Part shown: piece by piece, positions 4,151 through 64,000 of the stretch
Layout: every line of letters begins with the position of its first letter
How positions within the stretch are numbered: the stretch's first letter is position 1
NCBI GenBank assembly: GCA_947044365.1
Contig: OX345646.1
Span: 4,263,327-4,327,326, forward strand
DNA length: 64,000 nt
From: Petrosia ficiformis
Lineage: Eukaryota > Porifera > Demospongiae > Haplosclerida > Petrosiidae
Direction of reading: 5' to 3'
Notes under the pieces: generated by a model
Told to the model about the DNA's origin: nothing
What the model saw: the letters and a program-made list of their open reading frames with translations, nothing else
The model's database searches: none
Position numbers and translations under genes: made by a program

Positions 4151-4180
4151 ACAGGAAGTTGTCATAACATGTTATAAAAG
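4151..4180 (+). promoter_or_regulatory. Promoter of microprotein gene A1: ETS-like site plus TATA box
   Basis: ACAGGAAGTT (4151-4160) matches an ETS-type GGAA(G/A) site and TATAAAAG (4173-4180) is a canonical TATA box. The same two elements, with start-to-start spacing of exactly 22 bp, precede the class A genes at 48,565-48,594 and 63,518-63,547. A conserved TTTCAGTG about 30 bp after the TATA box is a likely initiator. Confidence 0.65.
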
Positions 4181-4350
4181 GGATGAATTTATATCATTTG
4201 TTTCAGTGTGAGTAAAACAAGCTAGTGGACTGAAGATAGCTGGGTCTCGAATAACAGTTTAATTTGCAATTTCTGTAAATTAAAGTGTCCTAAAGAATTA
4301 TTTATCTTAACAGACAATTGAGACTACAAGTGTAATATTGTAAAAGAAAG

Positions 4351-4820
4351 ATGTTCTTCACAGGTATGATATATTAGTATTATCATCATTAAAATTTTCC
4401 TATTAATGTAATATTTTATTACTAATACATAATGTAAAGTCTGTTCACATTCACAATGACCTAGTAGTATTCCATATTGATTAAAAATAAAACAGATTGA
4501 TTACAAACTGAGTAGTGACTAGTGACATACATCATAGGATATATCAAACAGTCGATATTATGTTATACATGTTATAACATGACATTATAATACACATAAT
4601 TATATATATCTTGAAATACAGACTGGAGTATACATGTTATTATATATGTACAGATAATACACTGAAGATAGTGATCATAATAGGAGGTGTAGTTACATTG
4701 ACTACCATTATCATGATATATACTATTAGTAGAGAAGAAGAGGAGTACATATATACACATCCAATTCCTGCTGAAGATGAGGGTAAAAATGGATTGTTAG
4801 TACTACCAAAGGGATACTAA
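4351..4820 (+). CDS. Class A single-pass microprotein (copy A1), two coding exons
   Basis: I do not recognise this family. Exon 1 is 4351-4363 (ATGTTCTTCACAG, donor GTATGA); exon 2 is 4654-4820 (acceptor TATGTACAG). The join is phase 1 and gives 59 residues starting MFFTDNTLK. Residues about 8-29 form one hydrophobic helix, residues 31-35 are R-E-E-E-E, and the tail is H-P-I-P-A-E-D-E-G-K-N-G-L-L-V-L-P-K-G-Y. The start was chosen because all class A first exons share this ATG and 13-nt length; an open frame running upstream of 4654 lacks a conserved ATG and lies in the intron. The 5' leader (about 4205-4350) follows a TATA/ETS promoter and contains a possible acceptor at 4313. A small membrane protein is inferred; the function is unknown. 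Confidence 0.7.
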
Positions 4821-5950
4821 ATACAAACGGTCACATTTACAATGTACTGTTATAATACTTATATAATTTATAATACAAATATTATTTAACGGTTAATATG
4901 CAGTAATTATGAATAACAGATCATTTTAGCTTGGGTAATTAGCATATTCATTAACTGACATTCATTCTTGTACAATATTATTAATAACTATTGTTGAAAC
5001 GCTTATCACCTTTTGTAAATAATATTATATTCATTAGTCATGTACATGGGTGCAAGCTTTCATATATAACAATAATTATTATTACAAGACTTGATATTGT
5101 TTATGCAATAATTGAATGAATATAATCACATGAATACACCTGCAAAATCTAATCAATAAAAATCACTAAAATGATCCAATTACTCATATTACCAAATCTT
5201 CCCATGCCTCTGGCTAGTGTCTAATTCTGTGGTTATTGAATGATAGTTACGTACATTAGCTAAATATATCCAACACAAACACTTTTATGCCTTTTATGCC
5301 AAACCAGTGATTCGCAACAACCTACCAAACTCTCTGTGGGGTACATGTATGTATATTTAACATTGTGTATCAAATTATACATTGACCATACATACCCATA
5401 AGATAATTAAGTGATGTAACAACTGAATAGACAATCTACATGTGTTTAATGATCCAGAGGCTATTGCTCTATGGTAGGGCATATTAAACATTATAGAAAT
5501 AGTCACATAGCATGACAGCTAGTCAAACTACATCATCTTTGTATTCTTCATACATCATGTAAAGGCACTCTCAATAATTATTACAAGACTTTATGCAAAA
5601 ATTGAATGAATATATTTACATTATTACACTTCTAAACTCCAAAAATCTGTTAACATGTTTTAACGAAAATTGATAAATACATTTACAGCCAATTATTTCA
5701 TTAATTCACAATGATAAATAACCCAAAGTGAGGTACATGTATTTGTTAGTCTCAGATGGATTCTATGTATGGATGTTCTGCTTATGAATAATTAGTAAGC
5801 ATGAAGCATTAATGTGTCAAGTTAATTAATTTATAACTGGATGTTCAGACAAGAAAGTTGACAATGGTAAAATTTAATAATATCACACGAGGATTAGAGA
5901 ATAGGGAAATAATCCAACACAAACATTTATAGACCAACCTAAAGGATTCA
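4821..5950. other. Intergenic AT-rich sequence, nothing recognised
   Basis: There is no supportable open frame. Parts, such as the blocks with ACAAGACTTGATATTGTTTATGC, recur downstream of other microprotein genes (for example 46,560-46,640). The sequence therefore looks like duplicated 3' flank. Confidence 0.5.
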
Positions 5951-6228
5951 GGTAACTATAGTCTATTCAACAGCGGAAAGAGTGCATCATCGGATTGTAA
6001 AATCAGTGGTGTCTCACGTGAGCATGTACCTCGTGTATACTCGCATGTCTTGGCAGGAAAATTTGAGAAAATGTTGCTGTGCTTATCGACCTGCATCTGT
6101 ATTTACAACTGAAAACACCAAAAGAAAATGAATCAAGAGCATCTCCAAGAGTATTACTAGTAATGGACATGACTATTTTGATTGGCAAAGTAAGAAACAG
6201 AAGTGCACCAGCTCTTACCTAAGTTATG

Positions 6229-6480
6229 TAAGATGACTGCTGAAGCCACTGGCTTCTCAGAGCGCACTGTCAACCGTGTCCTGCTGGAGAAGAGAATGCT
6301 GGATGAAGTTCATTTACATCTTCAAATAAGAGATATAAGGAAAGCAGAGAACATGTAGATGTTATGTTGGTCACAAGTAAAAGGTCATATGAACGAGTAT
6401 AATAAGAAATTCACTTTGTCTGCTGTGATTGATCTCACTTATGAAGGTTTCAGGAGAGTAAGACCTGAGAACGAACATCA
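6229..6480 (+). pseudogene. Possible remnant of a transposase-like helix-turn-helix coding region
   Basis: One frame from 6229 reads K-M-T-A-E-A-T-G-F-S-E-R-T-V-N-R-V-L, which resembles a helix-turn-helix motif (A-x-x-T-G-x-S-x-x-T-V-x-R) of DNA transposases. It ends in a stop after about 43 codons, and a later frame (D-L-T-Y-E-G-F-R-R-V-R-P-E-N) continues to about 6480. Base composition is less AT-rich than the flanks. No catalytic domain is visible. The start of the segment duplicated at 35,235 coincides with its end. Identification rests on a short motif only. Confidence 0.3.
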
Positions 6481-6999
6481 GCCATGTTAGAGATAAAGTA
6501 GAAGACCCCTAATGGTATTGCTGATAATTTATAAAAATGCATAGGAGAGTTTATTATTCATTTTGGAAGAGAATCAGATGAGTCATCAGAGGAAGAAAGC
6601 GGCAATTCAGGATCAGATGGCAGCATCAGAGAATACAAATAATAATAATATATAATAATTGTATTGCATTGTTTTATTAGAATTGTACTACTTATAAGCC
6701 ACTTGGTTTCAAGTATCTTGTAAATTCCTTTGCGTACATTATGGTACAATTCATATAGTTTATGATATGTGATCAATCACATATCAATGGTTCAGCAAGT
6801 TACGACAAGTGGAATGCTCTTTGTTGCATGTTAATACCACCATGTATAAGGAAGTTATAATTAAGTTAATTAACATTCGCAACTCTTTAACATGAATCGA
6901 CTATAAACACACTTTGTATGTTTATCAAATTATGAGTAGATCTATTGATGCAGACAAATAAGTTCTTATTTCCCTAATAAGACATTTGTGTAATTAATC

Positions 7000-7217: not shown

Positions 7218-7293
7218 CTATCTAAGGCTTTGTTTATACACACACTGTACATGTATATTATAATAATATGTCCTAATACATGTAGTCATAAGT

Positions 7294-7422
7294 TATCCTG
7301 CCAGTGGCAGTATAAAAACAGTTGCACTATATAATATCTATACAGAAAGCTACTGCACTGGATGACATAGAAGTGTCAAATTTTCTACAAAGAGAACCTT
7401 ACCATTATACTGCTACTAATAA
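7294..7422 (+). promoter_or_regulatory. TATA promoter and noncoding leader exon of gene B1
   Basis: TATAAAAA lies at 7311-7318, preceded by TATCCTGCC near 7294. The leader, probably from about 7340, ends at 7422 before a perfect GTAAGT donor. Equivalent leaders occur at 35,844-35,952 and 43,165-43,349, and diverged ones at 30,247, 33,401, 34,887, 58,046, 60,745 and 62,009. The leader contains only a very short upstream frame (ATG-ACA-TAG), so it is read as 5' UTR. Confidence 0.55.
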
Positions 7423-7520
7423 GTAAGTACCTACATGTATTAGTTAATAAATAAACTTGTAATATGATTGTTACTAACAGTTATATAATAATAAATAATT
7501 AAAAAATAATACATGCAAAA

Positions 7521-7745
7521 ATGTGTTTAATGCTCTATTGTAACATTGTAGATATTGTGCAGGGTTTCAGAAATCTTGTACCTGAGATGTTGTTGCATGT
7601 TGAAACGACATCTCAGGTACAAGAAGCCACCTCAGAGCGCCTAAATTTAATAACTTTCCTGGGGGAGCATACTCCTAGAATGCTCAGGTGCAGTTTGATT
7701 CACATGATCAATTCTTTCCTTTCCTTAACAAAAAATCCGGCATGA
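7521..7745 (+). other. Intronic segment with a strong hairpin and an open frame in both paralogues
   Basis: A 74-codon frame stays open here and at 36,013-36,237. The two copies differ by about seven replacement and two silent changes, which gives no sign of purifying selection. It contains a 16-bp perfect inverted repeat (CTTGTACCTGAGATGT ... ACATCTCAGGTACAAG, 17-nt loop) and a second weaker stem (CCTG ... AGCAT with ATGCTCAGG). It lies in intron 1 of gene B1. I favour a structured noncoding or transposon-derived segment over a protein gene. Confidence 0.35.
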
Positions 7746-7970
7746 AACATTAACCAAACAGTTTATTAATCTATATAACATAGAACAGAAGGGAACATAA
7801 TAAGCCTACAGCATCAGTCACTAGTCCTCACTGATCTCTACTGTACAATTAGAACTCTGGACTGCAACTCTGTTATAAATGTTAATATTATTATTATATG
7901 ATATTAACATAACAAACCTCACTGTACTATTAATACTGTATAATTCTCTCATACAGACTACATTTTAAAG

Positions 7971-8228
7971 ATGCATTTTGCAGGTAATCAACATATTCAT
8001 ACATGTATGATGAATTTACGTTATTAATAATATATTATTATTATTATTATTATTATTTTATTTACATGTGTATTTCATTATGATTATACAGAGGTAATGT
8101 TTGGAATAGGAGTGGTTGCTATGGCAACAGCAATATATTATATTGCAGCTCATAAAGACTATCCCCATTCCATTGCAGCTGTGGATAATGGGGAGAATGG
8201 AAAATTAATAATTTCTCAGAGACAATAA
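7971..8228 (+). CDS. Class B single-pass microprotein (copy B1), two coding exons
   Basis: Exon 1 is 7971-7983 (ATGCATTTTGCAG) inside a spliced block that begins at 7957 after CATACAG; exon 2 is 8092-8228. The phase-1 join gives 49 residues, MHFAEVMFGIGVVAMATAIY at the start, with one hydrophobic helix at about 5-24. A short K-D-Y-P-H-S-I linker and the family tail A-A-V-D-N-G-E-N-G-K-L-I-I-S-Q-R-Q follow. The leader exon is at about 7340-7422 behind a TATA box. Neither the helix nor the linker resembles class A, but the tail does. Copies B2 (pseudogene) and B3 (intact) share all splice sites. The family is unrecognised; membrane location is inferred. Confidence 0.7.
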
Positions 8229-8689: not shown

Positions 8690-8937
8690 GGTCATAGTGC
8701 TACTAAAAAGTGAGTTACTATTAATTATGATTACTAACAGGTATAATAATATAGTATGATCACTATATAAATAACAAATTACATGGATTTTATATAGTGA
8801 TCATACACAATGCAAAGATAATCATTATGACAGCCATCATTGCTACAGTAACAGGAATCATTATACTATACATTAAAAGTTATGAAGATGATGAAGACTA
8901 CTACTCATATCCTATTCAAGCTATTGATATTATGTAA
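8690..8937 (+). pseudogene. Class C microprotein remnant (C1), tail replaced by satellite
   Basis: A leader end with a GTGAGT donor lies at 8709/8710. A class C terminal exon begins at 8834 after ATTATGACAG and reads A-I-I-A-T-V-T-G-I-I-I-L-Y-I-K-S-Y-E-D-D-E-D-Y-Y. It reaches P-I-Q-A and then stops after I-D-I-M, exactly where the 69-bp satellite begins, so the G-E-N-G tail is missing. No ATG exon is visible between leader and terminal exon. In that interval, 8754-8771 and 8789-8806 form an 18-bp perfect inverted repeat. Probably non-functional. Confidence 0.65.
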
Positions 8938-9479
8938 TAATAAGTAACAGTGAATGTAGTCACGTTTCACTATTTGAATATAATTATTATAGTATTGAAC
9001 ATGTAATAATAAGTAACAGTGAATGTAGTCACGTTTCACTATTTGAATATAATTATTATAGTATTGAACATGTAATAATAAGTAACAGTGAATGTAGTCA
9101 CGTTTCACTATTTGAATATAATTATTATTGTATTGAACATGTAATAATAAGTAACAGTGAATGTAGTCACGTTTCACTATTTGAATATAATTATTATTGT
9201 ATTGAACATGTAATAATAAGTAACAGTGAATGTAGTCACGTTTCACTATTTGAATATAATTATTATTGTATTGAACATGTAATAATAAGTAACAGTGAAT
9301 GTAGTCACGTTTCACTATTTGAATATAATTATTATTGTATTGAACATGTAATAATAAGTAACAGTGAATGTAGTCACGTTTCACTATTTGAATATAATTA
9401 TTATTGTATTGAACATGTAATAATAAGTAACAGTGAATGTAGTCACGTTTCACTATTTGAATATGAGTTAGTATTGAAC
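8927..9479. repeat. 69-bp tandem repeat, about 8 units
   Basis: The unit contains AAGTAACAGTGAATGTAGTC and ACGTTTCACTATTTGAATAT. The period is 69 bp (for example 8941 to 9010), a multiple of three, so a long minus-strand frame stays open through it. That frame is an artefact. The array starts inside the class C terminal exon. Confidence 0.95.
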
Positions 9480-9529
9480 ATTTAATAATGTAACCTCATT
9501 ATTACAGTGCATGAATATAATTAATAATT

Positions 9530-9760: not shown

Positions 9761-9779
9761 GATGAAAATTGTAATACAC

Positions 9780-10422
9780 ATTAATTTTATAAATAGTTAA
9801 ATATATCCAATCCAATACTTATTATAGAGACCAACCCATGGGATACTAAGTAACCACATATGACTCACTACACCTGTAATGCTGATTGGGAATGGTTGAA
9901 ATCTTCATTAAGCCCACAAACTAATACATCCAACCCAATACTCATACATGTATATACAAAGCCAAAGGGTTAATAAGTACCCAGATGTCCCTACAAATAC
10001 ATTTTGTAACTCCCTATAATTACACACCTGTATTATATTATAATCATAATGCTGATTTCAAATGTTTACATATTATTGAAATCTTCATTAAGCCCACAAA
10101 CTAATACATCCAACCCAATACTCATACATGTATATACACCTATAATTACACACCTGTACTTCCTGTAGTACATGTATATTATATAATCATGATGCTGATT
10201 TCAAATGTTTACATATTATTGAAATCTTCATTAAGCCCACAAACTAGTACATCCAACCCAATACTCATACATGTATATACAAAGCCAAAGGGTTAATAAA
10301 TACCCAGATGTCCCTACAAATACATTTTGTAACTCACTATAATTACACACCTGTATTATATTATAATCATAATGCTGATTTCAAATGTTTACATATTGAA
10401 ATCTTCATTAAGCCCACAAACT
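9780..10422. repeat. Tandem dispersed repeat, about 180-bp units, interrupted by the BEL element
   Basis: Units contain ATACATCCAACCCAATACTC, AAAGCCAAAGGGTTAATAA and TTGAAATCTTCATTAAGCCC. They continue after the retrotransposon at 16,294-16,640. Related units occur at about 38,000-38,150, 38,505-38,650 and 50,120-50,300. They have no coding capacity. Confidence 0.8.
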
Positions 10423-10636: not shown

Positions 10637-13600
10637 ATGGCAGATCTGCCTACTCTCAGAAGACGAAGAGGAGTGACACGTGCCTCCGTTACTCGTCTGG
10701 TTACTGAAGTCAGAGAAGCCGAAGCCAAGAAAGATGAACCTGGAATATCTGACTTAGCCCAAAAGTTGTTGAAAAAGCTGGAATCACTTGATTCAGATTT
10801 TAAAACTCACCATTCAGCGATCATTGATTTAGTCGAAGAGGAAGACAACCTCGAACGTGAACAGGATGTTCTCGACCAACATGACGACGAAGTCCTTTAT
10901 TTGTCTACTCGACTAGAGCGGTTGATTGATACGTCTCCTCGGTTGAACACTCACTCGGTGACAAAAACAGCTGGTAGGAGACTGGACCACCTCCATAAAA
11001 GCTTCGAAATCGTTGCGGAAGCTGTTAGTAAACTATCTGAAGTTGATGATATTTGTTTGATCCGTTTGTATGATGAACAGTTGGTTAATTTCAAACATGA
11101 ACTTGATGATATATGTAAATCTATGTTCAGCATTGATGAAGTAGAAGATGACGAACTGTCCGGTAAGCAAGCTGAAATTAACAAAAGGCTTTTCGAATGT
11201 TCGTTAACTGTGAAACGATTTCTAGAACGACGTGTTCATTCTACGGTCCCATCAACTTCATCCTCTCGTGAAGGTGTGAAACTTCTCAAGTTGGATGTCC
11301 CTAGCTTTGATGGAAACATTTTAAATTGGAAGACCTTCTGGGATCAATTCCGTATATCTGTTCATGATCGTAGCAACTTGTCAGATGCTGAAAAGCTCGT
11401 TTACCTCCAACAGTCATTGAGAGATGGTCCAGCCAAGCGTTCAATAGAAGGGCTTTCTCGATCAGGAGAATGCTACCCAGAAGCCATTGAATGTCTGAAA
11501 TCCCGATACGACCGTCCACGACTCATTCACCAAACACATGTGCGTATGATCCTGGAAGCTCCATCTCTCAAGAGTGGTGATGGTAGAGAGCTACGCAGAT
11601 TGCATGATACGGTACAACAGCATATTCGAGCATTGAAGGCAATGGATTGTGAGCCTTCAGGCCCATTCATCACGTCTGTCGTCGAACTCAAATTAGACAC
11701 AACAACTATGTACGAATGGCAAAAACACAGTCAGGATACGACCAATGTACCACATTACCAGGATCTGTTGGAATTTATAAACCTCCGGGCACAAGCATCC
11801 GAAACATCTACATCAGACATCAAGAAACACACGAAGGGTGAGATTAAAGGGAAATTTCATTCCAGTAAGCCAGTAACATCGTTTGCTACTAATGCTGATA
11901 TCTCTGAGGCATCAGTATGCGTATTATGTAAGCCGGAAAGGCATCCATTGTTCACCTGTAGTAAATTCAAGGAACTCCCACATGACAGGAAGATGTCAAC
12001 CTTAAGGACACATAATCACTGTATTAATTGTCTTCGACCCGGCCACTACGTTCGACAATGCAAATCTGTTCATCGTTGTAGAAAGTGCCATAGTCAACAC
12101 CACACTCTGTTACACAATGAAACACCTAGTAAGGTCAATCTGAGGGAGGATTCAACCCCAGTGACAAATCATGCAACCATGGGCATCAAATCTCAATCAT
12201 TACTGATGACCTGTCGTGTGCTAATACACTCACCTAGTGGCTCATGTGTTGTCGCCCGAGCATTGCTTGATTCAGCATCATCAGCATCATTTGTTTCTGA
12301 TCGATTGGCTCAAAGTTTGTACCTTCCCCGATCTCGACACACTGCCAAGATAATGGGTGTTGGTGGGCTATCCCATAGTTCACCGATCAAATCAGTTACC
12401 AGTTTCCAGGTTTCTCCTACTCAGTCTCCAAATGAGAAATTTAAAGTGACAGCTGTAATTGTTCCAAAAGTCACCTGTGACTTACCTCGTTACCACGTTC
12501 CATGTGATTGTCGTTGGAGTCATTTGTCTGACATTGAGCTGGCAGACCCAGAGTTTGGAATTCCGGGTCAGATTGATGTATTGCTGGGTGTTGATGTGTT
12601 CGTCGAAGTTTTGTTACATGGCCGGCGGGTCGGCCCACCTCACACTCCTGTAGCAATTGAAACCAAGTTTGGTTGGATCATTGCTGGTGCCACAGACACT
12701 GAAGGCCTAACAGATGTTGTTTCTCATCACACTGTCACCGATCCAGACGATATGTTGAAGCAATTCTGGGAAATTAAAGAAATCCCTCGAACTGACTCCG
12801 CTTGCTGGTCTATGGAAGAACGCACTGTAGTAAATCAGTTTAAAACTCATCGTTTTCGTTCTTCTAGTGGGCGGTTTGTGGTTCCATTGCCAAGAAAGTT
12901 GAACATGCCCTCCATTGGGGAGTCACGATCTCAAGCAGTCCGAAGATTTTTGTATCTGGAGCGAGCATTATCAAAAAAAGGTTTGTCTGGTCAATTCAAT
13001 GATGTTATTAGCGAGTATTTTGAAATGGGTCATGCTGAACCTATTCCAGTCACTGACTTGAACAAACCTCCATCTCAAGTATTCTATCTACCCATGCACA
13101 TTGTACAGAAAGAATCTAGTTCAACTACCAAGATCAGAGCAGTCTTTGACGCTTCAGCAAAATCATCCACCGGTATATCACTAAACGATACTTTACTGGT
13201 TGGTCCAACTGTGCATTCACCACTTGTTGATGTCTTACTTCGTTTTCGTTTGTATCGTATTGCTCTGACCACAGATGTCAGTCGCATGTATCGTGCAGTT
13301 GAGCTAACTGAATCTGACCGTGATTTCCACCGATTCGTCTGGAGAAGTGATCCTAACAAACCTCTTCAAGACCACCGTATGACTCGGGTGACATTTGGAG
13401 TTTCAGCGTCCCCGTTTGCAGCAAACATGGCTGTTAGACAGAATGCAATTGATAATGCCTCTGAATTTCCCTTAGCAGTGAAAGCTGTGTTCAACTCATT
13501 CTATGTTGATGATGGTCTGATTGGTACTGATTCTAAAGAGGAAGCCATTGTGCTGCAGCAACAGTTACAAGGTCTGTTTGCTAAGGGTGGATTCCTTTTG

Positions 13601-15043
13601 AGAAAATGGAACTCAAATGCAGCATCAGTGATTCAAACACTGCCTCCTGAACTGCAAGACTCCCGGAGTATTTTGTCGATCACCGAATCTCAAGGCTATA
13701 CGAAGACCCTGGGTGTCGAATGGCATTCTAAACTCGATCATTTTCGGTTAACCATGAATGAACCACCTTCGTTTGATAACCTCACAAAGAGAGGATTAGT
13801 TTCCGATATCGCAAAGACATTTGATGTTTTGGGGTGGTTTTCACCTACAATGGTAAAGGCCAAGATTTTGTTACAAAGAGTGTGGGAAGTAGGAGTTGAT
13901 TGGGATCAGGACATACCCCAGTACATTGCCAAAGAATGGTTACGATGGAGGATGGAATTGAAGCTTCTGTCCAAAAAACACATCAGTCGTTACTATTTTC
14001 ATGAAGATGCTTCAATTAAGGAGCTGCAGCTACACGGGTTTTGTGATGCCTCTGAAAACGCATATGCAAGTGTGGTATACCTACGTATGACTGACTCTAA
14101 AGGCAATGTGCATGTATCCTTGGTGTTGGCGAAGACCAAAGTTGCTCCTATCAAGAGACTAACTATTCCACGCTTGGAATTGTGTGGAGCATATCTGCTG
14201 GCAAAGGTTCTCCATCATGTAAAGGGAGTCCTGGACATTACAACATCTAAAGTATTTGCATGGACTGATAGTACCATCGTGTTAGATTGGTTGAAAGGCA
14301 ATCCACGAAGATTCAAACAGTTCGTTGGTAACAGAATTTCACTCATAATGGAGTTGATCCCATCAGCAAGATGGAGTCATGTAAATGGAGTAGACAATCC
14401 TGCTGACTGTGCATCCAGAGGGATGTTCCCGTCAGAACTGATTGGATACAAGATGTGGTGGTCAGGCCCAGATTGGCTGAAAGTATCTTCTGATGACTGG
14501 ACAAGACGAAATAGTAGTTGTGCCTCAATGCCTGAAGAAGATTGCTCTGAAGAGTTGTGTCATCACACGCATGATCACACAGAACCACCTATCATTCCGC
14601 TAAATCGATACTCTGATTTTAACCACCTAAAACGGATCACAGCATGGATCATTCGTTTTATCAACCATTGTCAGAAGAAGAACATCATGACAAGTCAATT
14701 GTCAACTAAAGAGTTATGGGATGCCGAAGCATACTGGGTCAAATACTCTCAACATGAGTGTTTTGCATCTGAGTTAAAGGTAATTACAAACGAGAAGCAA
14801 CTTCCAGCCAGTAGTATACTCCGATCTCTCAACCCATTCATTGATGCAAGTGGCATACTTCGTTTAAGTGGTCGTCAAGACAACTGTGGATTGGCATACT
14901 CTCGTAGATATCCTGTGATTCTACACAGTAAACATTCAATCACTCAACTCATAATTCGTCAAGAACACATTCGGTTGTTACATGCTGGACCCACATTACT
15001 GATAGCATCATTGAATCGTAGATTCCATGTCATTGGTATGTGA
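10637..15043 (+). CDS. BEL/Pao gag-pol polyprotein, N-terminal part, ended by an in-frame TGA
   Basis: 1,468 codons. Order: charged N-terminal coiled-coil region (about 1-200); a gag-like domain of the DUF1759 type (about 215-370, starting L-D-V-P-S-F-D-G); C-x2-C-x4-H-x4-C knuckles at about 428-441 and 462-475, with a further C-x2-C motif at 481; a retropepsin-like domain with L-L-D-S-A-S-S near 545; reverse transcriptase with Y-V-D-D-G at 956-960; and an RNase H-like region with D-A-S near 1137 and T-D-S-T near 1211. It ends in the H-H half of the integrase zinc finger. The frame continues without shift after the TGA into the integrase core. Protease D-S-A instead of the usual D-S/T-G may be natural variation in this clade. 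It acts in element replication, not in host function. Confidence 0.92.
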   Translation: MADLPTLRRRRGVTRASVTRLVTEVREAEAKKDEPGISDLAQKLLKKLESLDSDFKTHHSAIIDLVEEEDNLEREQDVLDQHDDEVLYLSTRLERLIDTSPRLNTHSVTKTAGRRLDHLHKSFEIVAEAVSKLSEVDDICLIRLYDEQLVNFKHELDDICKSMFSIDEVEDDELSGKQAEINKRLFECSLTVKRFLERRVHSTVPSTSSSREGVKLLKLDVPSFDGNILNWKTFWDQFRISVHDRSNLSDAEKLVYLQQSLRDGPAKRSIEGLSRSGECYPEAIECLKSRYDRPRLIHQTHVRMILEAPSLKSGDGRELRRLHDTVQQHIRALKAMDCEPSGPFITSVVELKLDTTTMYEWQKHSQDTTNVPHYQDLLEFINLRAQASETSTSDIKKHTKGEIKGKFHSSKPVTSFATNADISEASVCVLCKPERHPLFTCSKFKELPHDRKMSTLRTHNHCINCLRPGHYVRQCKSVHRCRKCHSQHHTLLHNETPSKVNLREDSTPVTNHATMGIKSQSLLMTCRVLIHSPSGSCVVARALLDSASSASFVSDRLAQSLYLPRSRHTAKIMGVGGLSHSSPIKSVTSFQVSPTQSPNEKFKVTAVIVPKVTCDLPRYHVPCDCRWSHLSDIELADPEFGIPGQIDVLLGVDVFVEVLLHGRRVGPPHTPVAIETKFGWIIAGATDTEGLTDVVSHHTVTDPDDMLKQFWEIKEIPRTDSACWSMEERTVVNQFKTHRFRSSSGRFVVPLPRKLNMPSIGESRSQAVRRFLYLERALSKKGLSGQFNDVISEYFEMGHAEPIPVTDLNKPPSQVFYLPMHIVQKESSSTTKIRAVFDASAKSSTGISLNDTLLVGPTVHSPLVDVLLRFRLYRIALTTDVSRMYRAVELTESDRDFHRFVWRSDPNKPLQDHRMTRVTFGVSASPFAANMAVRQNAIDNASEFPLAVKAVFNSFYVDDGLIGTDSKEEAIVLQQQLQGLFAKGGFLLRKWNSNAASVIQTLPPELQDSRSILSITESQGYTKTLGVEWHSKLDHFRLTMNEPPSFDNLTKRGLVSDIAKTFDVLGWFSPTMVKAKILLQRVWEVGVDWDQDIPQYIAKEWLRWRMELKLLSKKHISRYYFHEDASIKELQLHGFCDASENAYASVVYLRMTDSKGNVHVSLVLAKTKVAPIKRLTIPRLELCGAYLLAKVLHHVKGVLDITTSKVFAWTDSTIVLDWLKGNPRRFKQFVGNRISLIMELIPSARWSHVNGVDNPADCASRGMFPSELIGYKMWWSGPDWLKVSSDDWTRRNSSCASMPEEDCSEELCHHTHDHTEPPIIPLNRYSDFNHLKRITAWIIRFINHCQKKNIMTSQLSTKELWDAEAYWVKYSQHECFASELKVITNEKQLPASSILRSLNPFIDASGILRLSGRQDNCGLAYSRRYPVILHSKHSITQLIIRQEHIRLLHAGPTLLIASLNRRFHVIGM

Positions 15044-16099
15044 AAGGGTGTTCGGTCAATTACTCGCAGTTGTATTGTCTGTCGTCGAGAAACAGCCAAA
15101 CCTCAATCACAGAAAATGGGAAAATTACCTATAGAAAGGGTCACACCTAATCATACTGGTACAGTGTTTGCTAATGTAGGCATTGATTATGCTGGTCCTG
15201 TGAAGATGAAATATGGATCTGTACGTAGACCTACTGTGGTGAAGGCATACATTTGTGTTTTCGTGTCTTTATCTGTCAAAGCAGTTCATCTGGAAGTGGT
15301 TTCCGATTTGACGACAGACGCATTTATAGCCTGTCTACGACGTTTTATATCTCGTCGAGGGAAACCGAATGTCATTTGGAGTGACCATGGTACCAATTTT
15401 GTTGGAGCAGCAAGGGAGCTTAAAGAGCTCTCAGGGTTTTTACAAGAGAAGAAAACTCAAGACGTTATTTCCCAGTTTTGCTCATCTCAGTCCATTGAAT
15501 GGAAGTTTATACCAGAAAGAGCTCCTCACTTTGGAGGTCTCTGGGAGGCTGCAGTGAAAAGTTTGAAGTTACATCTGAAACGTGTTGTTGGAGAAGTCAA
15601 GTTGACCTTTGAAGAGTTTATGACAGTACTCACACAGATCGAGGCCTGCCTCAATAGCCGACCTCTGACTCAAATTCCATCTGAGGATGATGGAATTGAA
15701 GCACTGACTCCAGGGCATTTTCTTATTGGTCAGCCCTTGGAGGCTATTCCAGATCCTGTAGGCTCATACCGACCACTACCAATCCTGCGTCGATGGCAAT
15801 TATGCCAAAGTTTGGTTCGTCATTTCTGGCAGAGATGGTCAGATGAATATCTTGTCTCATTGCGTCGATACAATAAATGGCAGTATCCTACGAGAAATGT
15901 ACAGGTTAATGACATAGTTGTGCTGCAAGAAAATGTTTTAGTTCCCTGTAAATGGCCACTTGGATGGGTTATTGAAGTTCACAAGGGAAAGGACAATCTG
16001 GTGCGTGTTGTGACTGTTAAAACCAAATCAGGAATTTACAAAAGACCTATCACGAAGATAGCTAGTTACTCTCTGGCAATGACTCAACTTAACATTTGA
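15044..16099 (+). CDS. BEL/Pao integrase part, same frame after the TGA
   Basis: The frame is in register with gag-pol (10,637 plus a multiple of three). It first supplies the C-I-V-C half of the integrase zinc finger. The first ATG is at 15,116, so a separately started protein would lack the finger. Counting from 15,116, the catalytic residues are D24 (I-D-Y-A-G-P), D90 (W-S-D-H-G-T-N-F) and E144 (G-G-L-W-E-A), with a D-to-E spacing of 53. The C-terminal part (about 210-320) resembles the DUF5641 region that ends BEL/Pao polyproteins. Whether the TGA is a mutation, a readthrough site or an assembly error cannot be told here. Confidence 0.88.
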   Translation, partial: KGVRSITRSCIVCRRETAKPQSQKMGKLPIERVTPNHTGTVFANVGIDYAGPVKMKYGSVRRPTVVKAYICVFVSLSVKAVHLEVVSDLTTDAFIACLRRFISRRGKPNVIWSDHGTNFVGAARELKELSGFLQEKKTQDVISQFCSSQSIEWKFIPERAPHFGGLWEAAVKSLKLHLKRVVGEVKLTFEEFMTVLTQIEACLNSRPLTQIPSEDDGIEALTPGHFLIGQPLEAIPDPVGSYRPLPILRRWQLCQSLVRHFWQRWSDEYLVSLRRYNKWQYPTRNVQVNDIVVLQENVLVPCKWPLGWVIEVHKGKDNLVRVVTVKTKSGIYKRPITKIASYSLAMTQLNI

Positions 16100-27943: not shown

Positions 27944-27976
27944 ATGCATTTTGCAGGTAAACAAGTGATGAAATTA

Positions 27977-30246: not shown

Positions 30247-30378
30247 CATAAAAGAACAGTACACAACTAGCAGTAGTTATTTAAGCTATTACACTGAATT
30301 TCTTGATCACAATAGAGGAGTGCTAAGTGCTGAACTACCTGAAATATTGTGTACTTATCATTATAGTGCTACTAAAAA
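30247..30378 (+). promoter_or_regulatory. Orphan TATA-like promoter and leader exon of the microprotein family
   Basis: CATAAAAG (30,247-30,254), then the conserved leader (TTTCTTGATCACAATAGAGG, GTGCTAAGTGCTGAACTACC) ending at 30,378 before GTGAGT. No initiation exon follows. Downstream is only the class A tail remnant at 30,668. Similar orphan leaders are at 33,401-33,505, 34,887-35,013 and 60,745-60,845. Confidence 0.5.
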
Positions 30379-35952: not shown

Positions 35953-36294
35953 GTGGGTAACTATTAGTTAATAAATAAACTTGTAATATAATTGTTACTA
36001 ACAGTTGCAAAAATGTGTTTAATGCTCTATTGTAACATTGTAGATATTGTGCAGGGTTTCAGAAATCTTGTACCTGAGATGTTGTTGCATGTTGAAATAA
36101 CATCTCAGGTACAAGAAGCAACCTCAGAGGGCCTAAATTTAAAAACTTTCCTGGGGGAGCATACTTCTAGAATGCTCAGGAGCAGTGTGATTCACATGAT
36201 CAATTCGTTCCTTTCCTTAACAAAAAATCCGGCATGAAACATTAATCAAACAGTTTATTAATTTATATAACATAGAAACAGAAAGGAACGCAAT

Positions 36295-36770: not shown

Positions 36771-36932
36771 ATTGCAATGTCAAGTCTATTGCTCCAAGAA
36801 CTCTGGACTGCTACTATCCCAACTCTGTTATAAATGATAATATTTAATATCATCATTACATGATATTAATGTAACAACATTCACTGTACTATTAATAATG
36901 TATAATTCTCTCATACAGACTACATTTTAAAG

Positions 36933-37357
36933 ATGAATTTGGAAGGTAAGCAACATATACATGTACAAGAGATGAATTTACTTTATTAATAATATATTAT
37001 TATTTTATTATTATTATTACAATTATGATTATACAGAGGTAATGTTTGGAATAGGAATGGTTGCTATGGCAACAGCAATATTCGCAACACATTATATTGT
37101 ACATGTACCAAACAGTTGACATTATGTTATATAATTATAATAATAATATGAAATACAGACTGGAGTATACATGTTATTATATATGTACAGATAATACACT
37201 GAAGATAGTGATCCTAATAGGAGGTGTAGTTACATTGACTACCATTATCATGATACATACTATTAGTAGAGAAGAAGAGGAGTACATATATACACACCCA
37301 ATTCCTGCTGAAGATGAGGGTAAAAATGGATCGTTAGTACTACCAAAGAGATACTAA
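36933..37357 (+). CDS. Hybrid microprotein gene (A2): one start exon, tandem class B and class A terminal exons
   Basis: The start exon is 36,933-36,945 (ATGAATTTGGAAG, M-N-L-E), in a block beginning at 36,919 after CATACAG. Two terminal exons follow, both in phase. A class B exon starts at 37,037 (E-V-M-F-G-I-G-M-V-A-M-A-T-A-I-F) but ends early with V-H-V-P-N-S-TGA at 37,117, without the family tail. A complete class A exon is at 37,191-37,357 (D-N-T-L-K-I-V-I-L-I-G-G ... E-G-K-N-G-S-L-V-L-P-K-R-Y). Splicing to the second skips the broken B exon and gives a full class A protein of 59 residues with a class B-type promoter. A recombination origin, or mutually exclusive exons, are both possible. 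Confidence 0.6.
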
Positions 37358-45792: not shown

Positions 45793-45860
45793 ATGCATTT
45801 TGCAGGTAAACAAAAAAAAACAAATGATGAATTTTATATTATTATTATTATTAATTATTA

Positions 45861-45895: not shown

Positions 45896-46067
45896 ATGTG
45901 TATTTCATTATGATTATACAGAGGTAATGTTTGGAATAGGAATGGTTGCTATGGCAACAGCAATATTCACAATACATTATATTGCAGCTCATAAAGACTA
46001 TCCACATTCCATTGCAGCTGTGGATAATGGGGAGAATGGAGAATTAATAATTCCTCAGAGACAATAA
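45793..46067 (+). CDS. Class B single-pass microprotein (copy B3), two coding exons
   Basis: The start exon is 45,793-45,805 (ATGCATTTTGCAG), in a block beginning 45,779 after CATATAG. The terminal exon is 45,922-46,067. 52 residues: M-H-F-A-E-V-M-F-G-I-G-M-V-A-M-A-T-A-I-F, then T-I-H-Y-I-A-A-H-K-D-Y-P-H-S-I, then A-A-V-D-N-G-E-N-G-E-L-I-I-P-Q-R-Q. The helix spans about 6-24. It is the best preserved class B copy, three codons longer than B1. Its leader is at 43,165-43,349, so intron 1 is about 2.4 kb and mostly minisatellite. Function unknown. Confidence 0.72.
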
Positions 46068-48743: not shown

Positions 48744-49711
48744 ATGTTCTTCACAGGTATGATATATGTACTGTACATTATCATCATTAAAATTTGCATA
48801 TCCTATTAATATTTATTATTAATACAAAATGTAAATTCTATTCACATTCCCAATGACCTCATAATTATGATGTGATGCCTTTATATGTAATATAGTGTAT
48901 AGTTTAATACCATAAGGTTAATACATGATTATACTGTAACTCAATAACTTATATGTAATATAGCGTATAGTTTAATACCATAAGGTTAATACATGATTAT
49001 ACTGTAACTTAATAACTTATATGTAATATAGTGTATAGTTTAATACCATAAGGTTAATACATGATTATACTGTAACTCAATAACTTATATGTATATAGTG
49101 TATAGTTTAATATCATAAGGTTAATACATGATTATACTATAACTCAATAACTTATATGTACTATAGTGTATAGTTTGATATCCTAAGGTTAATACACGAT
49201 TATCAATAATGAAGTAATGGATTAAAAATTGGAATACACAAAAAAGAATGAGAAAGATAATTATATGAAAATGGTGCAGATAAAAAGACTGTTGGTCATT
49301 CCAAACTAAAGATTGTGAATATTGTTCTGAGGTCATGGTGAACACGAATGATCTTTAGTAGTATTAAATGTTGCTAAAACAGAATTTGATAAGCGTGAAT
49401 TGTAAAGACTTACAAACACAGTAGTGACTAGTGACATACATCATTAGAATATATCAAACAGTTGACATTATGTATACCATGACATTATAATACACATAAC
49501 ACTATATATCTTGAAATACAGACTGGAGTATACATGTTATTATATATGTACAGATAATACACTGAAGATAGTGATCATAATAGGAGCATTGACTACCATT
49601 ATCATGATATATACTATTAGTAGAGAAGAAGAGGAGTACATATATACACATCCAATTCCTGCTGAAGATGAGGGTAAAAATGGATTGTTAGTACTACCAA
49701 AGAGACACTGA
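48744..49711 (+). CDS. Class A single-pass microprotein (copy A3), two coding exons
   Basis: The start exon is 48,744-48,756 (ATGTTCTTCACAG, donor GTATGA); the terminal exon is 49,554-49,711 after TATGTACAG. 56 residues, M-F-F-T-D-N-T-L-K-I-V-I-I-I-G-A-L-T-T-I, then I-M-I-Y-T-I-S-R-E-E-E-E-Y-I-Y, then T-H-P-I-P-A-E-D-E-G-K-N-G-L-L-V-L-P-K-R-H. Compared with A1 there is a 9-nt in-frame deletion inside the helix. The intron carries a half foldback element and a 68-bp tandem repeat yet keeps both splice sites. Function unknown. Confidence 0.7.
48881..49195. repeat. 68-bp tandem repeat, about 4.6 units, in the A3 intron
   Basis: Units contain TTATATGTAATATAGTGTAT and ACCATAAGGTTAATACATGA. The period is 68 bp (48,881 to 48,949). 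A single unit occurs at the ends of the foldback family near 18,080-18,130 and 61,435-61,490. Confidence 0.9.
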
Positions 49712-56749: not shown

Positions 56750-56916
56750 ATAATACACTGAAGATAGTGATCATAATAGGAGGTGTAGTTACATTGACTA
56801 CCATTATCATGATATATACTATTAGTAGGGAAGAAGAGGAGTACATATATACACATCCAATTCCTGCTGAAGATGAGGGTAAAAATGGATTTTTAGTACT
56901 ACCAAAGAGACACTGA
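56750..56916 (+). pseudogene. Class A terminal exon without a visible start exon (copy A4)
   Basis: 167 nt after TATGTACAG: D-N-T-L-K-I-V-I-I-I-G-G-V-V-T-L-T-T, helix, R-E-E-E-E-Y-I-Y, then P-I-P-A-E-D-E-G-K-N-G-F-L-V-L-P-K-R-H-stop. The exon is intact and the acceptor conserved. About 290 bp upstream the sequence changes to the duplicated RT remnant, and no ATGTTCTTCACAG-type exon or TATA/ETS promoter is present. It could splice to a distant start exon, but a truncated copy is more likely. Confidence 0.55.
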
Positions 56917-58045: not shown

Positions 58046-58522
58046 CCACTCAGTGCACAACTAGCAGCAGTCGCTATTACACTGAATTTCTTGATCACAA
58101 TAGAGGAGTGCTAAGTGCTGAACTATCTGGAATATTGTGTACTTATCATTATAGTGCTACTAAAAAGTGAGTTACTATTAGTTAATGTAATATGATTACT
58201 ACTAAGTACTAACAGGTATAATAATATATTTTATAACAGTTTATAGATATTGTGTATGATCACTATATAAAATGTATGTAACAAAATCTTTAATAATTAT
58301 ATTAGTACAGTGTGGAAATTAAGCCTGCAATATCTCGTTAGAAAATTGCACTGTACAACTAGTATGGATTGTAATGTAAAATCTACAATAGTACTCCAAG
58401 AACACTGGAGTGCGACTTTCCCAACTCTGTTGTAAATGTTTCATTTAATATTATTATCATTATAAATTCACTGTACTATTAATATTGTATAATTCTCTCA
58501 TACAGACAACATTTTAAAGATA
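58046..58522 (+). pseudogene. Microprotein gene remnant with lost start codon
   Basis: The leader (TTTCTTGATCACAATAGAGG) ends at 58,166 before GTGAGT. The next exon is recognisable after CATACAG (58,506 onward, ACAACATTTTAAAG), but its ATG is ATA (58,520-58,522). Beyond that the sequence switches to the 2,650-type dispersed repeat, so no coding part remains. Confidence 0.7.
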
Positions 58523-59506: not shown

Positions 59507-59769
59507 ATGACTTTTCCAGGTAAACAACAAAAACAGTGTTGAACTTACATACAAATGTTACTCATTACAGTACATGTACATGTTACTTGCGCATGTTATT
59601 TTGCATAAAGATAATCATTATGACAGGCATTGTTGCCTCAGTAACAGGAATCATTATACAATATATTAAAATATTTAAAGATGATGAAGACTACTACTCA
59701 TATCCTATTCAAGCTGTAGATCAGGGAGAAAATGGGATATTAGTACATGTATATCTTGAAAGACACTGA
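59507..59769 (+). CDS. Class C single-pass microprotein (copy C2), two coding exons
   Basis: The start exon is 59,507-59,519 (ATGACTTTTCCAG, donor GTAAAC); the terminal exon is 59,627-59,769 after ATTATGACAG. 51 residues: M-T-F-P-G-I-V-A-S-V-T-G-I-I-I-Q-Y-I-K-I, then F-K-D-D-E-D-Y-Y-S-Y-P-I-Q-A, then V-D-Q-G-E-N-G-I-L-V-H-V-Y-L-E-R-H. The acceptor was chosen because it is the only nearby AG in the required phase and is conserved in C1 and C3. The tail has a two-residue insertion before E-R-H. The helix is short (about 5-20). Function unknown. Confidence 0.65.
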
Positions 59770-61430
59770 ATATATAAACACTCTATTAGAAAATGGAATT
59801 CTTCTTTGTTATAATCCAATTATAATAATTCATGTACACATGTACATCTTACATTAAACAATTTTTTTTTTTTTTTTTGTTTTCAAATGTAATTTGATGC
59901 TCTTGTTATAATAAGTACACATATAATATATAATAATCTTGAAGCCCTCAAAGTATGCAACAAGTACATGTATGTTGTTATTAAGGTGCATGCATTTGGG
60001 TAATTAGCAATTCATTAAATATCATACATTTCTGATTAGTATATTTTTAGGTAACTTGTTCTAATTATCCACGTACTCTATTACTCTGATATTTTGAAAA
60101 TTAGTATCTGAAAAACCTACAATGCAAGCGCTTGGCTGTGGTCTGATTTTTCTTTTATAATTGCTTGTTTGTACATTTTTACATACTAGAATTATTCTTG
60201 TTTCAGAGATCATAGAAGCTACATTTAAAAAGAGAGACTGTTGATGTGTAGAATAAAATGTGTTATGAGAGTAACAAAAGTTTCATATCTTTAGCTATGG
60301 CAGATTTGTCAACTCTAGCTGAAAGAAAACAGCATGGCATTACTGTGAAACAGAGAGTGCTATCAACACAAGATCAGTTCTGTGTTTAGAGGTCAGTAAG
60401 ATTATCAAAACTATTCAAAAATGTCTCCTATAAGTGGAGTTTTGTAATGAAAAAACAAGATGAAAAGTTGTTACTCATGAAATTGCAATGACTTGGAAAC
60501 TCCATATGAAGGCAGTGACTCCACTATGAATACATTTAAAGTCTAAATGCCCACTGAGTTATTTTAAGCAATTAAAATATGCAAACATTTGTTTATGAGG
60601 CTTTATTGAATTTTGTACACCATACTGAAGCCATAATGTAAGCCCAAAATGTTTGGAGGTAACATTAACCATAATTATGTAGCATTTGTTTAATTGGTAA
60701 ACCACACAAAACTACTTAGTAGACATACATAACCCACTCATTTGTATAAAAGGACAGTGCACAACTATCAGTAGTTATTTAAGCTATTACACTGAATTTT
60801 TTGATCACAATAGAGGAGTGATAAGTGCTGAACTATCTGGAATAGTTTATACTGTTGTAATGGCTGTACGCAATTGATGTTTATGCTAGCTTCCTGTAAA
60901 GGTGGAGGAAAGGCATTCATGACTGCTGCAGCTGTGGGCATTAGATAGAACCGTAGATATTGATTGATATCGAAAGGACTGACAGCGCTGGATAATGATG
61001 TACGGATATAGATTTTTACCGATAATCTGATAGCCGATAATTACTTGCATTATATCTGCCGATACCAATTCGATAATTTCACACTTCCAACATTAATTAT
61101 TGTAATAAAGTAAAATAATATTACATATGTATTGTGATATTAAATTATTATCACTTATTTTGAATAGATGTATTTACGACCTACAACTGTACTAGTTCAA
61201 AATTAGCAACATGGCAAGTGCAATGGGGTTTAATAAGAGAATTTAACAAGTGTATGGAATTGATGTTGTTCATGCACAATTAATATCGACTGGCTATTGG
61301 TACGAATTTGCAGATAACTATACGCTAAAGTAATCATATTTATCAGCTGATCAGATGGCTGATCCGATTGTTGGTGCATCACTAAAGTCTGTTCACATTC
61401 ACGATTTCCTCAACATTATGATGTGATGAC
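59770..61430. other. 3' flank, duplicated segments and an orphan leader
   Basis: Poly-T at 59,860-59,878. 59,990-60,540 resembles 31,610-32,110; within it a 30-codon frame from 60,298 (M-A-D-L-S-T-L-A-E-R-K-Q-H-G-I-T-V-K-Q) follows TTTAG but is not preserved in the other copy. TATAAAAG at 60,745-60,752 starts an orphan leader that ends near 60,845. 60,900-61,385 is unrecognised. Confidence 0.5.
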
Positions 61431-61616
61431 TTTATATGTAATATAGTGTATAGTTTAATGTCATAAGGTTAATACATGATTATACTGTAACTCACTAATG
61501 AAGCAATGGATTGAAATTTGACATATACAAAAACGAACAGGAAGGATAATTATATGAAAATAGTACAGACTGTTGGTCATTCAAACTAAAGTTATGTATG
61601 TACATGTATGTATGTA

Positions 61617-61648
<32 letters not shown>

Positions 61649-61660
61649 AACTATGTACAT
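61431..61660. repeat. Half foldback element and TG microsatellite
   Basis: 61,435-61,490 is one unit of the 68-bp repeat; 61,530-61,600 is the foldback arm; (TATG)n/(TG)n at 61,600-61,650. Confidence 0.7.
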
Positions 61661-62008
61661 GTATGCAGTATATTGACCTAACCCTGATATTATGCACACT
61701 CAGCACAAAACAAAATATTATTTAATAAAGTGAACTAAATTGAATTTGTTAATTCCTTCTAAAGGTTGTAATACCATAATCCACATTTCAATGTCATTTC
61801 AATGAGTTGTGACATTAATTATTATGCACTATGATTTAATTATTGTCTGTTTAATTACCTTAAAGTCAAGATATTCTTACCATTAATATAATTATTACTA
61901 CCTAGTATGACATTAAAAATTAGTATAGGCTTAGTATAGGCTTCTTCAATCATATGGTATTTGTTTATAATCATAATTTAATTGCTAAACAACTCAGTGT
62001 GTCAATTG

Positions 62009-62123
62009 GATAAAAGAGCAGTGCACAACTATCAGTAGTTAAATTTCTTGCTCACAATAGAGGAGTGCTAAGTGCTGAACTGCCTGGAATATTGTGTACT
62101 TATCATTATAGTGCTACTAAAAA
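62009..62123 (+). promoter_or_regulatory. TATA-like promoter and leader exon of gene C3
   Basis: GATAAAAGAGCAGTGCACAAC stands where other copies have TATAAAAG. The conserved leader follows and ends at 62,123 before GTGAGT. Confidence 0.5.
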
Positions 62124-62189
62124 GTGAGTTACTATTAGTTAATGTAATATGATTGCTACTAAGTACTAACAGGTATAATAATATATTTT

Positions 62190-62297
62190 AATTTATAACA
62201 GTTAATAGATATTGTGTATGATCACTATATAAAATGTATGTAATTTGTTACATTTTATATAGTGATCATACACAATGTCTATAAACTGTTATAAATT
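62190..62297. repeat. 49-bp inverted repeat in intron 1 of gene C3
   Basis: 62,190-62,238 pairs with 62,249-62,297 with two mismatches around a 10-nt loop. The left arm is the normal intron 1 sequence of the family (for example 58,230-58,280) and the right arm is its inverted copy. A shorter 18-bp version is at 8,754-8,806. Confidence 0.9.
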
Positions 62298-62587
62298 TAT
62301 TAGATATAATGTATTATTATAACTGCAACTGGTAAATCTTATCTAAATAATTTATACTAGATCAACAATTATATTAGTACAGTGTGGGAATTAAGCCTAC
62401 AATATCTGGTAAGAACATTCCACTGTACAGATAGTATGGATTGTAAGGTCAAATCTACGATAGTACTCCAAGAACACTGGAGTGCTACTTTTCCAACTCT
62501 GTTATATTTAATATTATTATCATTATAATTAAAATTCACTGTACTATTAATACTGTATAATTCTCTCATACAGACTACATTTTAAAG

Positions 62588-62902
62588 ATGCATTTTGCAG
62601 GTAATGAACATATTATACAAGAGATGAATTTATATTATTATTATTATTATTATTTCTATTATTATTAATACTATTATTATAATTACATGTATATCCCTCA
62701 TTACAGTACATGTTACTTGTATATATCATTATGTACAGATATTATAAAGAAAATAATTATGATAGGCATCATTGCCTCGGTAACAGGAATCATTATACTA
62801 TATATTAAAATATACGAAGATGATGAAGACTACTACTCATATCCTATTCAAGCTGTGGATCAGGGAGAAAATGGAATTTTAGTATTCCCTCAAAGACACT
62901 GA
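62588..62902 (+). CDS. Class C single-pass microprotein (copy C3), two coding exons
   Basis: The start exon is 62,588-62,600 (ATGCATTTTGCAG), in a block from 62,574 after CATACAG; the terminal exon is 62,766-62,902 after ATTATGATAG. 49 residues: M-H-F-A-G-I-I-A-S-V-T-G-I-I-I-L-Y-I-K-I, then Y-E-D-D-E-D-Y-Y-S-Y-P-I-Q-A, then V-D-Q-G-E-N-G-I-L-V-F-P-Q-R-H. The start exon is identical to class B start exons, so start exons are exchangeable between classes. One hydrophobic helix spans about 5-20, followed by a strongly acidic linker. Function unknown. Confidence 0.7.
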
Positions 62903-63517
62903 ATATATAAACACTCTATCAGAGATTCTTAAAAGACAATTAAATGGATTATAATTGAATACATAATACATGTACATGTACATGTCCTACAGTTGTTTTG
63001 TTTTCAAATGTAATATGATACTTTTATTATAATAGTACACACAATACATATCATGGACCAAAGTATGAAACAAGTATTTATTAAGATGGTGCTCGGGTAA
63101 TTAGCATATATTAATTAGCCATACATTTCTGATTACTGTAGTAGTAGATTTTTAGGTAACTTGTTCTAATTATGTACACACTCTATAAGTCTCAGTTACA
63201 GCTAGTATTATAATTATATTTTCATTTGTAACAATATAGTCATTTTAATATATCAAGCTCCACGCCCTCTAATAATTATTTTTAAAGATGGCTGGAAGCA
63301 ATATTTTAATTAATTTATGTATGTAAATTTGAGTATTATGTGTACATTAATTAATGCACATCTCCTCAGAAGGGTATACATGTACATAGGAAGAGTATAT
63401 GTACAATAATTAATGATTATATGGTTGGGCAATAGTTTATGCTGGAGCTAATCTAATTAATTATGATAACATAAAACATATTTTACATACTGTATAACTG
63501 TATATAGTTACTATGTA
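62903..63517. other. 3' flank of C3, duplicated 3'-flank type
   Basis: 63,090-63,190 is the TTAGCCATACATTTCTGATT segment seen after other copies. The rest is AT-rich with no gene seen. Confidence 0.5.
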
Positions 63518-63547
63518 ACAGGAAGTTGCCATAAAATGTTATAAAAG
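63518..63547 (+). promoter_or_regulatory. Promoter of gene A5: ETS-like site plus TATA box
   Basis: ACAGGAAGTT at 63,518-63,527 and TATAAAAG at 63,540-63,547, the same 22-bp start-to-start spacing as A1 and A3. Confidence 0.65.
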
Positions 63548-63706
63548 GCATGAATTTATATCTGGATTCATTTGTTTCAGTGTGTAAAACAAGCTAGTAG
63601 ACTGGAAGATAGCTGGGTCTCAAATAACATTGTGATTTCTGCAAACTAAATAATTATTTATCTTCACAGACAATTGAGACTACAAGTGCAATACTGCAAA
63701 AAAAAC

Positions 63707-64000
63707 ATGTACTTCACAGGTATGATATATTAAGATTATCATCATTAAATTTTGCATTTCCTATTAATATAATATTTATTACTAATACATAGTGTAGTAG
63801 TATTCAATGCTGATTTAAAAAAAACAAAAACAGATTGATTACAAACAGAGTAGTGACTAATGACATACATCATAGAATATACCGACATTATGTTATATAA
63901 ATAACACTTGAAATACAGACTGGAGTATACATGTTATCATATATGTACAGATAATACACTGAAGATAGTGATCATATTAGGAGGTGTAGTTACATTGACT
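63707..64000 (+). CDS. Class A single-pass microprotein (copy A5), cut by the window end
   Basis: The start exon is 63,707-63,719 (ATGTACTTCACAG, M-Y-F-T, donor GTATGA). The terminal exon begins at 63,951 after TATGTACAG and reads D-N-T-L-K-I-V-I-I-L-G-G-V-V-T-L-T before the sequence ends. The promoter, leader and possible acceptor (CTTCACAG before 63,670) match A1 and A3. The tail lies outside the window. Confidence 0.65.

Follow-up and report, generated by a model that had tools for sequence, protein, structure and literature searches.

What are the short, similarly built exons that recur on one strand of a 64,000-nucleotide (nt) stretch of chromosome 11 of the Mediterranean sponge Petrosia ficiformis? 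This stretch, hereafter the window, spans positions 4,263,327-4,327,326 of the chromosome in the odPetFici3.1 genome (191,215,263 bases in 29 contigs). An original prediction, made from the letters of the window, described the exons as a coding, unnamed and lineage-restricted family of single-pass microproteins of about 50 residues. We favour, with slightly better than even confidence, the view that they form an unnamed P. ficiformis family of small membrane-protein genes, encoding signal-anchor microproteins whose disordered acidic tail would serve as a docking motif in the lumen or outside the cell, the copies providing dose or variation.

Gene architecture in the window

The genes consist of a 13-nt coding start exon, a phase-1 join and a single terminal exon. 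The start exon pattern (ATGNNNTTYRCAG/GTR, the slash marking the splice site) occurs seven times in the window, always on the + strand, for an expectation of 0.04 (100 shuffles). Over positions 4,243,001-4,447,000 of chromosome 11 (204 kb less 326 bases) it was found 16 times on the + strand and never on the - strand, and the codon motif for the DxGxNG part of the protein tail occurs there 23 times on the + strand and never on the - strand. Gene finders tend to miss genes of this kind, which are very short, have several exons and start with a coding exon of 13 nt.

Five intact genes of the subfamilies A, B and C lie wholly inside the window (A1, B1, B3, A3 and C3). Their joins (4363/4654, 7983/8092, 45805/45922, 48756/49554 and 62600/62739, respectively) use a GT donor and a TACAG acceptor, and yield products of 49-59 residues with one hydrophobic segment each. 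A sixth gene, A5 (join 63719/63951), extends beyond the window, with a stop codon ending at window position 64117. The acceptor reads TGTACAG/AT, or a close form, in the A and C copies, and TTATACAG/AG in the B copies. Among the joins named in the original prediction, 7983/8092 and 4363/4654 hold. The third, 62600/62766, has an in-frame AG, but it lies 27 nt downstream of the acceptor common to the intact C copies; it was dropped because this shared acceptor lies at 62739, which gives the C product the F-[TA]-[DE] junction that is also present in A and B and in the chromosome 7 gene described below.

The terminal exons are on the + strand, as predicted, but their count had to be raised from ten to 11, whole or truncated (starting at 4654, 8092, 8815, 28109, 37191, 45922, 49554, 56750, 59605, 62739 and 63951), besides a B-type fragment from 37037 and an A-type fragment at about 30668. 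Two leaders stand without an intact gene, at 58501-58522 (start codon now ATA) and at 36914-36935. The features of the window are as follows.

4351..4363, +, A1 coding start exon, 13 nt (MFFT); start exon pattern
4654..4820, +, A1 terminal exon including the stop, 59-residue product; join and hydropathy model
7312..7422, +, B1 putative TATA box and exon 1 of the 5' untranslated region (5'UTR); donor GTAAGT at 7423, transcription start presumed
7957..7983, +, B1 inferred exon 2, 27 nt, coding part 7971-7983; start exon pattern and acceptor
8092..8228, +, B1 terminal exon including the stop, 49-residue product
8815..8937, +, C-type terminal exon that a 69-nt tandem array (8932-9489) cuts short
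27944..27956, +, start exon belonging to a B copy with a shortened terminal exon that retains only the tail, to 28188
37191..37357, +, A-type terminal exon without an intact model, preceded by a B-type leader (36914-36945) and by the broken B exon that starts at 37037
45793..45805, +, B3 start exon
45922..46067, +, B3 terminal exon, 52-residue product
48744..48756, +, A3 start exon; the long intron contains a 68-nt tandem array (48881-49203)
49554..49711, +, A3 terminal exon, 56-residue product
56750..56916, +, A-type terminal exon; start exon not found within 900 bases
59605..59769, +, C-type terminal exon; variant start exon upstream, no in-frame acceptor at the usual place
62010..62123, +, C3 putative TATA box followed by exon 1 of the 5'UTR; donor GTGAGT at 62124, transcription start presumed
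62574..62600, +, C3 inferred exon 2, 27 nt, coding part 62588-62600; start exon pattern and acceptor
62739..62902, +, C3 terminal exon, 58-residue product
63707..63719, +, A5 start exon
63951..64000, +, A5 terminal exon, cut by the window end

The locus at 36837-37357 is chimeric: directly after a B-type leader and a broken B exon comes an A-type terminal exon.

Several B and C copies are preceded by a recurrent block that combines a TATA-like element (e.g. at 7312 and 62010) with a donor (GTAAGT or GTGAGT), and the acceptor TCTCATACAG located 14 nt upstream of the ATG delimits an exon 2 of 27 nt. We infer that transcription of subfamilies B and C begins at a TATA promoter and runs through an exon of the 5'UTR, an exon that was missing from the original prediction. 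In the two mRNAs that we assembled (B1 and C3, with assumed 5' ends), the microprotein is the longest open reading frame (ORF) beginning with ATG, and the sole upstream ATG opens a two-codon ORF in B1. A coding exon 1 was rejected on the same grounds, C3 having no ATG and B1 only this two-codon ORF in exons 1 whose starts are assumed. The TATA blocks of the window outnumber its intact genes, further ones being located at 30248, 33402, 34888 and 60746. The presumed 5'UTR intron of C3 contains a near-palindromic inverted repeat (62170-62325), with similar inverted matches at several copies. Upstream of two copies, a repeated stretch with an internal inverted repeat (7503-7742 and 35992-36234) resembles, by eye, a small element of the miniature inverted-repeat transposable element type.

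Constraint on the coding exon

The ratios of nonsynonymous to synonymous substitution rates (dN/dS) were calculated by the Nei-Gojobori method with a bootstrap over codons; the copies are related and not independent, so that the intervals are optimistic. The ratio was below 1 in both large subfamilies, namely 0.43 in A (95% interval 0.20-0.92; 14 copies) and 0.34 in C (0.19-0.62; 15 copies), and it was 0.44 (0.28-0.64) for all 33 copies. The coding exon of A and C is under purifying selection, which bears out the prediction that these exons are coding.

Copies across the genome and their spread

From the genome matches, the lists of which give lower bounds, we examined 27 terminal exons located at positions 4,243,001-4,447,000 of chromosome 11. 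A strict start exon lies within 600 bases of 14 of them, one of which (28109) is a truncated terminal exon. When variant start exons and the long A3 intron are allowed, start exon, acceptor and frame are all kept in 23 of 33 loci by our own count: 16 in this first cluster, five in a second cluster of chromosome 11, one at 4.918 Mb of the same chromosome (L028, its variant start exon being accepted by eye) and one on chromosome 7. This set excludes the truncated or rearranged copies of chromosome 11 at 4272141, 4291422, 4350601 and 4353410, together with short or partial matches, including those of chromosome 17; the loci of branch D (see below) were treated apart. The second cluster (5.346-5.369 Mb) is on the - strand, about 0.9 Mb from the first. 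The dispersed tandem array of the prediction is real, but the family is larger and includes a cluster of opposite orientation that was invisible from the window alone. Other matches to the family occur at 4.918 Mb of chromosome 11 and on chromosomes 14 and 17 (contigs C14 and C17), the latter with partial tail matches at 2440537-2442774. The lone gene of chromosome 7 shares 49% identity with the C3 exon. Its 13-nt start exon reads ATGCCCTTCACAG/GTAAAC and it encodes 53 residues; P0018 and P0021 are its close public relatives.

When copies are compared in pairs, the homology around the stop codon ends between -154 and -1999 on the 5' side and between +3 and +1500 on the 3' side (compared stretch, -2000 to +1500). 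Three pairs of chromosome 11 copies are nearly identical over long distances: 4326061/4408119 (98% over about 1.85 kb), 4331026/4413092 (99% over 3.5 kb) and 4327282/4409338 (98% over 3 kb). Two A copies (4267985 and 4372913) have a common 3' flank, unlike most other copies. Judged from these alignments, the family has expanded by recent segmental duplication. The ends differ between copy pairs and no fixed ends are common to the copies, which speaks against a transposon. The predicted diversification by duplication was partly right: the copies did spread by duplication, but diversified applies only in part because selection on A and C is purifying. At 4353410-4353793 of chromosome 11 the tail exon is repeated in frame with a unit of about 30 residues, and a similar repeat occurs in the ORFs P0040, P0045 and P0056.

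Comparison with known families

The original prediction knew of no named family with this tail, and our searches agree with it. None of the eight proteins scanned against Pfam-A exceeded a curated cut-off; the sub-threshold names (YiaAB, LT-IIB, Coa3_cc, TrbK and PigN) vary from protein to protein and look like chance matches. None of six proteins exceeded an NCBIfam cut-off, the best being TIGR02922 for P0019 (E 0.0049; 16.9 bits vs 64.95). The homologue searches (62 matches among 131 candidates, 71 among 869 and 6 among 15) returned no match with a name or a Pfam domain; the matches are unnamed ORFs from ENA, with hosts unstated, or from the window itself. These searches are consistent with a lineage-restricted family. 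A literature search of incomplete coverage turned up no description of the A-D family.

A profile search of the PDB found no family member, its four matches (E 0.079-6) being all to cadherins or protocadherins over 13-21 residues. Cadherins have a turn motif, A-x-D-x-D-x-G-x-N-G-x-L, and an extracellular cadherin (EC) domain of about 110 residues with calcium motifs. The 13-21 residues of the family tail resemble this turn (chains of CELSR1 and protocadherin-19) at the motif level, but the family has no EC domain and its tail of about 25-33 residues shows no secondary structure in the model. These proteins do not qualify as cadherins. The COA3-type cytochrome oxidase assembly factors (PF09813) similarly have one short helix with flanks, and one of four proteins gave E 0.059, but with 13.5 bits for a cut-off of 27, and the other three did not match. 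In being small, orphan, tandem, segmentally duplicated and under purifying selection, the family resembles the lineage-restricted tandem arrays of small single-pass membrane proteins; it differs from them in matching no named family tested, in its 13-nt coding start exon and in having its tail also on a protein that has as many as three hydrophobic segments.

Protein features

By hydropathy, all seven single-pass models have one hydrophobic region of about 20 residues, no cysteine and no glycosylation sequon. The AF2 model of P0021, a single-pass form, agrees with a single helix (residues 2-36) followed by an unstructured tail (mean pLDDT 70; tail block 51-55). A beta-hairpin tail was rejected: it is absent from this model, and the model of branch D has two strands of two residues with pLDDT near 50. 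The N-terminal flank, counting the free amino end, is more positive than the C-terminal flank in six of the seven models. The tail A-x-D-x-G-x-N-G-x-L is invariant in 12 aligned sequences and present in 27 of the 33 copies.

Branch D, the same tail on a longer protein

Thirteen strong loci (E 2e-16 or better) on chromosomes 1, 2 and 11 make up branch D. Over 33 residues, the D tail and the best A copy are 61% identical (E 8e-6). Branch D carries AxDxGxNGxL behind up to three hydrophobic segments. Its model has three helices of low confidence (mean pLDDT 61, pTM 0.28); the third segment is uncertain because hydropathy alone shows two peaks above 1.6. The prediction of a single-pass family of about 50 residues stands for A-C as regards small size and one hydrophobic helix, but does not cover the whole family, since the D tail sits on a protein of 102 residues with three helices in this low-confidence model. 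The tail exon, which one-helix proteins have in common with a protein of up to three hydrophobic segments, illustrates concretely, in an early-branching animal, a possible growth of small membrane proteins through the gain of exons.

The 102-residue protein is P0069 (ENA; two contigs, the longest of 627 nt). It corresponds to three pieces, 86-97% identical, in three separate exons of the D locus L058, where GT-AG sites at the piece limits, read by eye, fit joins in phase. P0069 is not the L058 copy, since L058 carries two additional codons at the first join and would encode V instead of D at the second. No whole-length match to P0069 was found in the genome, and no phage match; the longest stop-free genomic matches (residues 1-53, 68%; residues 57-102, 67%) each run into an intron across one join. 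These comparisons suggest that P0069 is the product of a spliced D-gene transcript; it might instead stem from a retrocopy missing from the assembly.

Other candidates were discarded around branch D. Three D terminal exons about 23 kb apart could have been the ends of large receptor genes, but a compact gene is what P0069 and the exons of L058 point to. A signal-peptide-like exon noticed by eye in L057 is probably a repeat, since the array has a comparable stretch within an ORF on its minus strand. In L057 (446-851) the D hydrophobic exon is present in three head-to-tail copies within a single open frame, as an exon-duplication series. In L059, FN3- and Ig-like translations, recognised by eye (minus strand 1852-2175 and plus strand 5941-6317), lie close to a D locus on chromosome 2.

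Proposed role and alternative explanations

Comparison of sequences established the architecture, the constraint, the copy history and the conservation of the tail. The proposed mode of action goes further. The hydrophobic segment would be an uncleaved signal anchor, leaving the N-terminus in the cytosol, and the acidic, disordered tail of about 25-33 residues would face the lumen or the outside. The tail motif may be the working part, docking to a partner membrane or surface protein, and the many copies could raise the dose or vary the tail. Branch D would present the same tail from a protein with up to three hydrophobic segments. A bolder version, which we regard as very unlikely, is a surface-tag locus: tens of microproteins, along with the longer D proteins, would display the short linear tail AxDxGxNGxLhxP on the outside of the cell. 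Individuals would differ in copy number and in tail variants, and the display would serve the recognition of self or of microbial partners in this symbiont-rich sponge.

Several observations weigh against the signal-anchor proposal. The N-terminal flank is itself positive in just five of the seven models and has zero charge in both B models, B3 shows no charge difference between flanks, and the charge rule is a weak guide at such a short protein length. Ten of the 33 loci have no intact model and six of the 33 copies depart from the tail motif (by changes at single positions, several of them in the chromosome 11 copy 4416997), so that decay or drift is under way. Subfamily B, with three copies, has an uninformative dN/dS of 1.26 (0.44-6.11). 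Finally, no A-C transcript was found: a junction pattern scan of 73 matched proteins returned no spliced A-C product, in a protein database clustered at 90% identity, which may hide joined A-C members. The sole pattern match, P0043, was not counted because its first residues read, by eye, as intron sequence like that preceding C3.

The incomplete loci and the ratio of B, in an array that is rich in repeats and contains a Pao-type retrotransposon, would also fit mostly dead remnants carried by local segmental duplication or by a mobile element. We regard this explanation as very improbable, for dN/dS is below 1 in A and C, 95% interval included, the copies lack fixed ends and a spliced D product appears to exist. 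Marginally less credible still is the view that these exons terminate larger receptor genes, in which the 13-nt exon would be an alternative start. A phase-1 exon with a transmembrane segment and a cytoplasmic tail is typical of receptor genes, and Ig- and FN3-like translations were seen by eye near one D locus; on the other hand, the start exon accompanies the terminal exon in 23 of 33 loci, any upstream coding ORF in the two assembled mRNAs is at most two codons long, and the P0069 ORF starts at the first hydrophobic exon of D.

It is also unlikely that the genes encode secreted peptide precursors, in which a signal peptide would be cleaved and the acidic tail of 25-33 residues released. The N-terminal region ahead of the hydrophobic stretch is short, small residues occur just past the stretch in B and C7 (IAA/HKD and IIA/RQE, by eye) and the tail would lie outside, as in the signal-anchor proposal. 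Against cleavage, the stretch of about 19-23 residues is long for a cleaved signal, A and C have no small-residue cleavage site by eye, the D tail comes after three helices predicted with low confidence, and there is neither a cysteine nor, by eye, a dibasic processing site before the tail. Quite unlikely, in our opinion, is a housekeeping organelle microprotein (an accessory subunit of the mitochondrial inner membrane or the endoplasmic reticulum) expanded in this sponge, the chromosome 7 copy being its conserved ancestor. Size, single helix and the public relatives P0018 and P0021 of that lone copy agree with it, but no Pfam family reached its cut-off, Coa3_cc remaining the best assembly-factor match, and tandem expansion is unusual for such subunits.

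The family is checkable at once, since the P. ficiformis genome project describes poly(A) RNA-seq libraries along with 18,339 genes annotated by BRAKER3 (PMC12648040).

Other sequence features of the window

No RNA family reached its gathering score in the window. A Pao-type retrotransposon occupies 10637-16096 on the + strand; its ORF of 1468 residues (Peptidase_A17, DUF1759 and a weak RVT_1) is followed after one stop, in the same frame, by a second ORF of 351 residues (DUF5641 and a weak integrase), and repeats lie nearby at 9918, 10241 and 16433. Minisatellites occur as paired arrays at 22841-24475/52488-53531 (21 nt), 39173-39498/50723-51336 (24 nt) and 36315-36761/43577-45621 (43 nt); these pairs probably go back to a duplication, within the window, that involved tens of kb.

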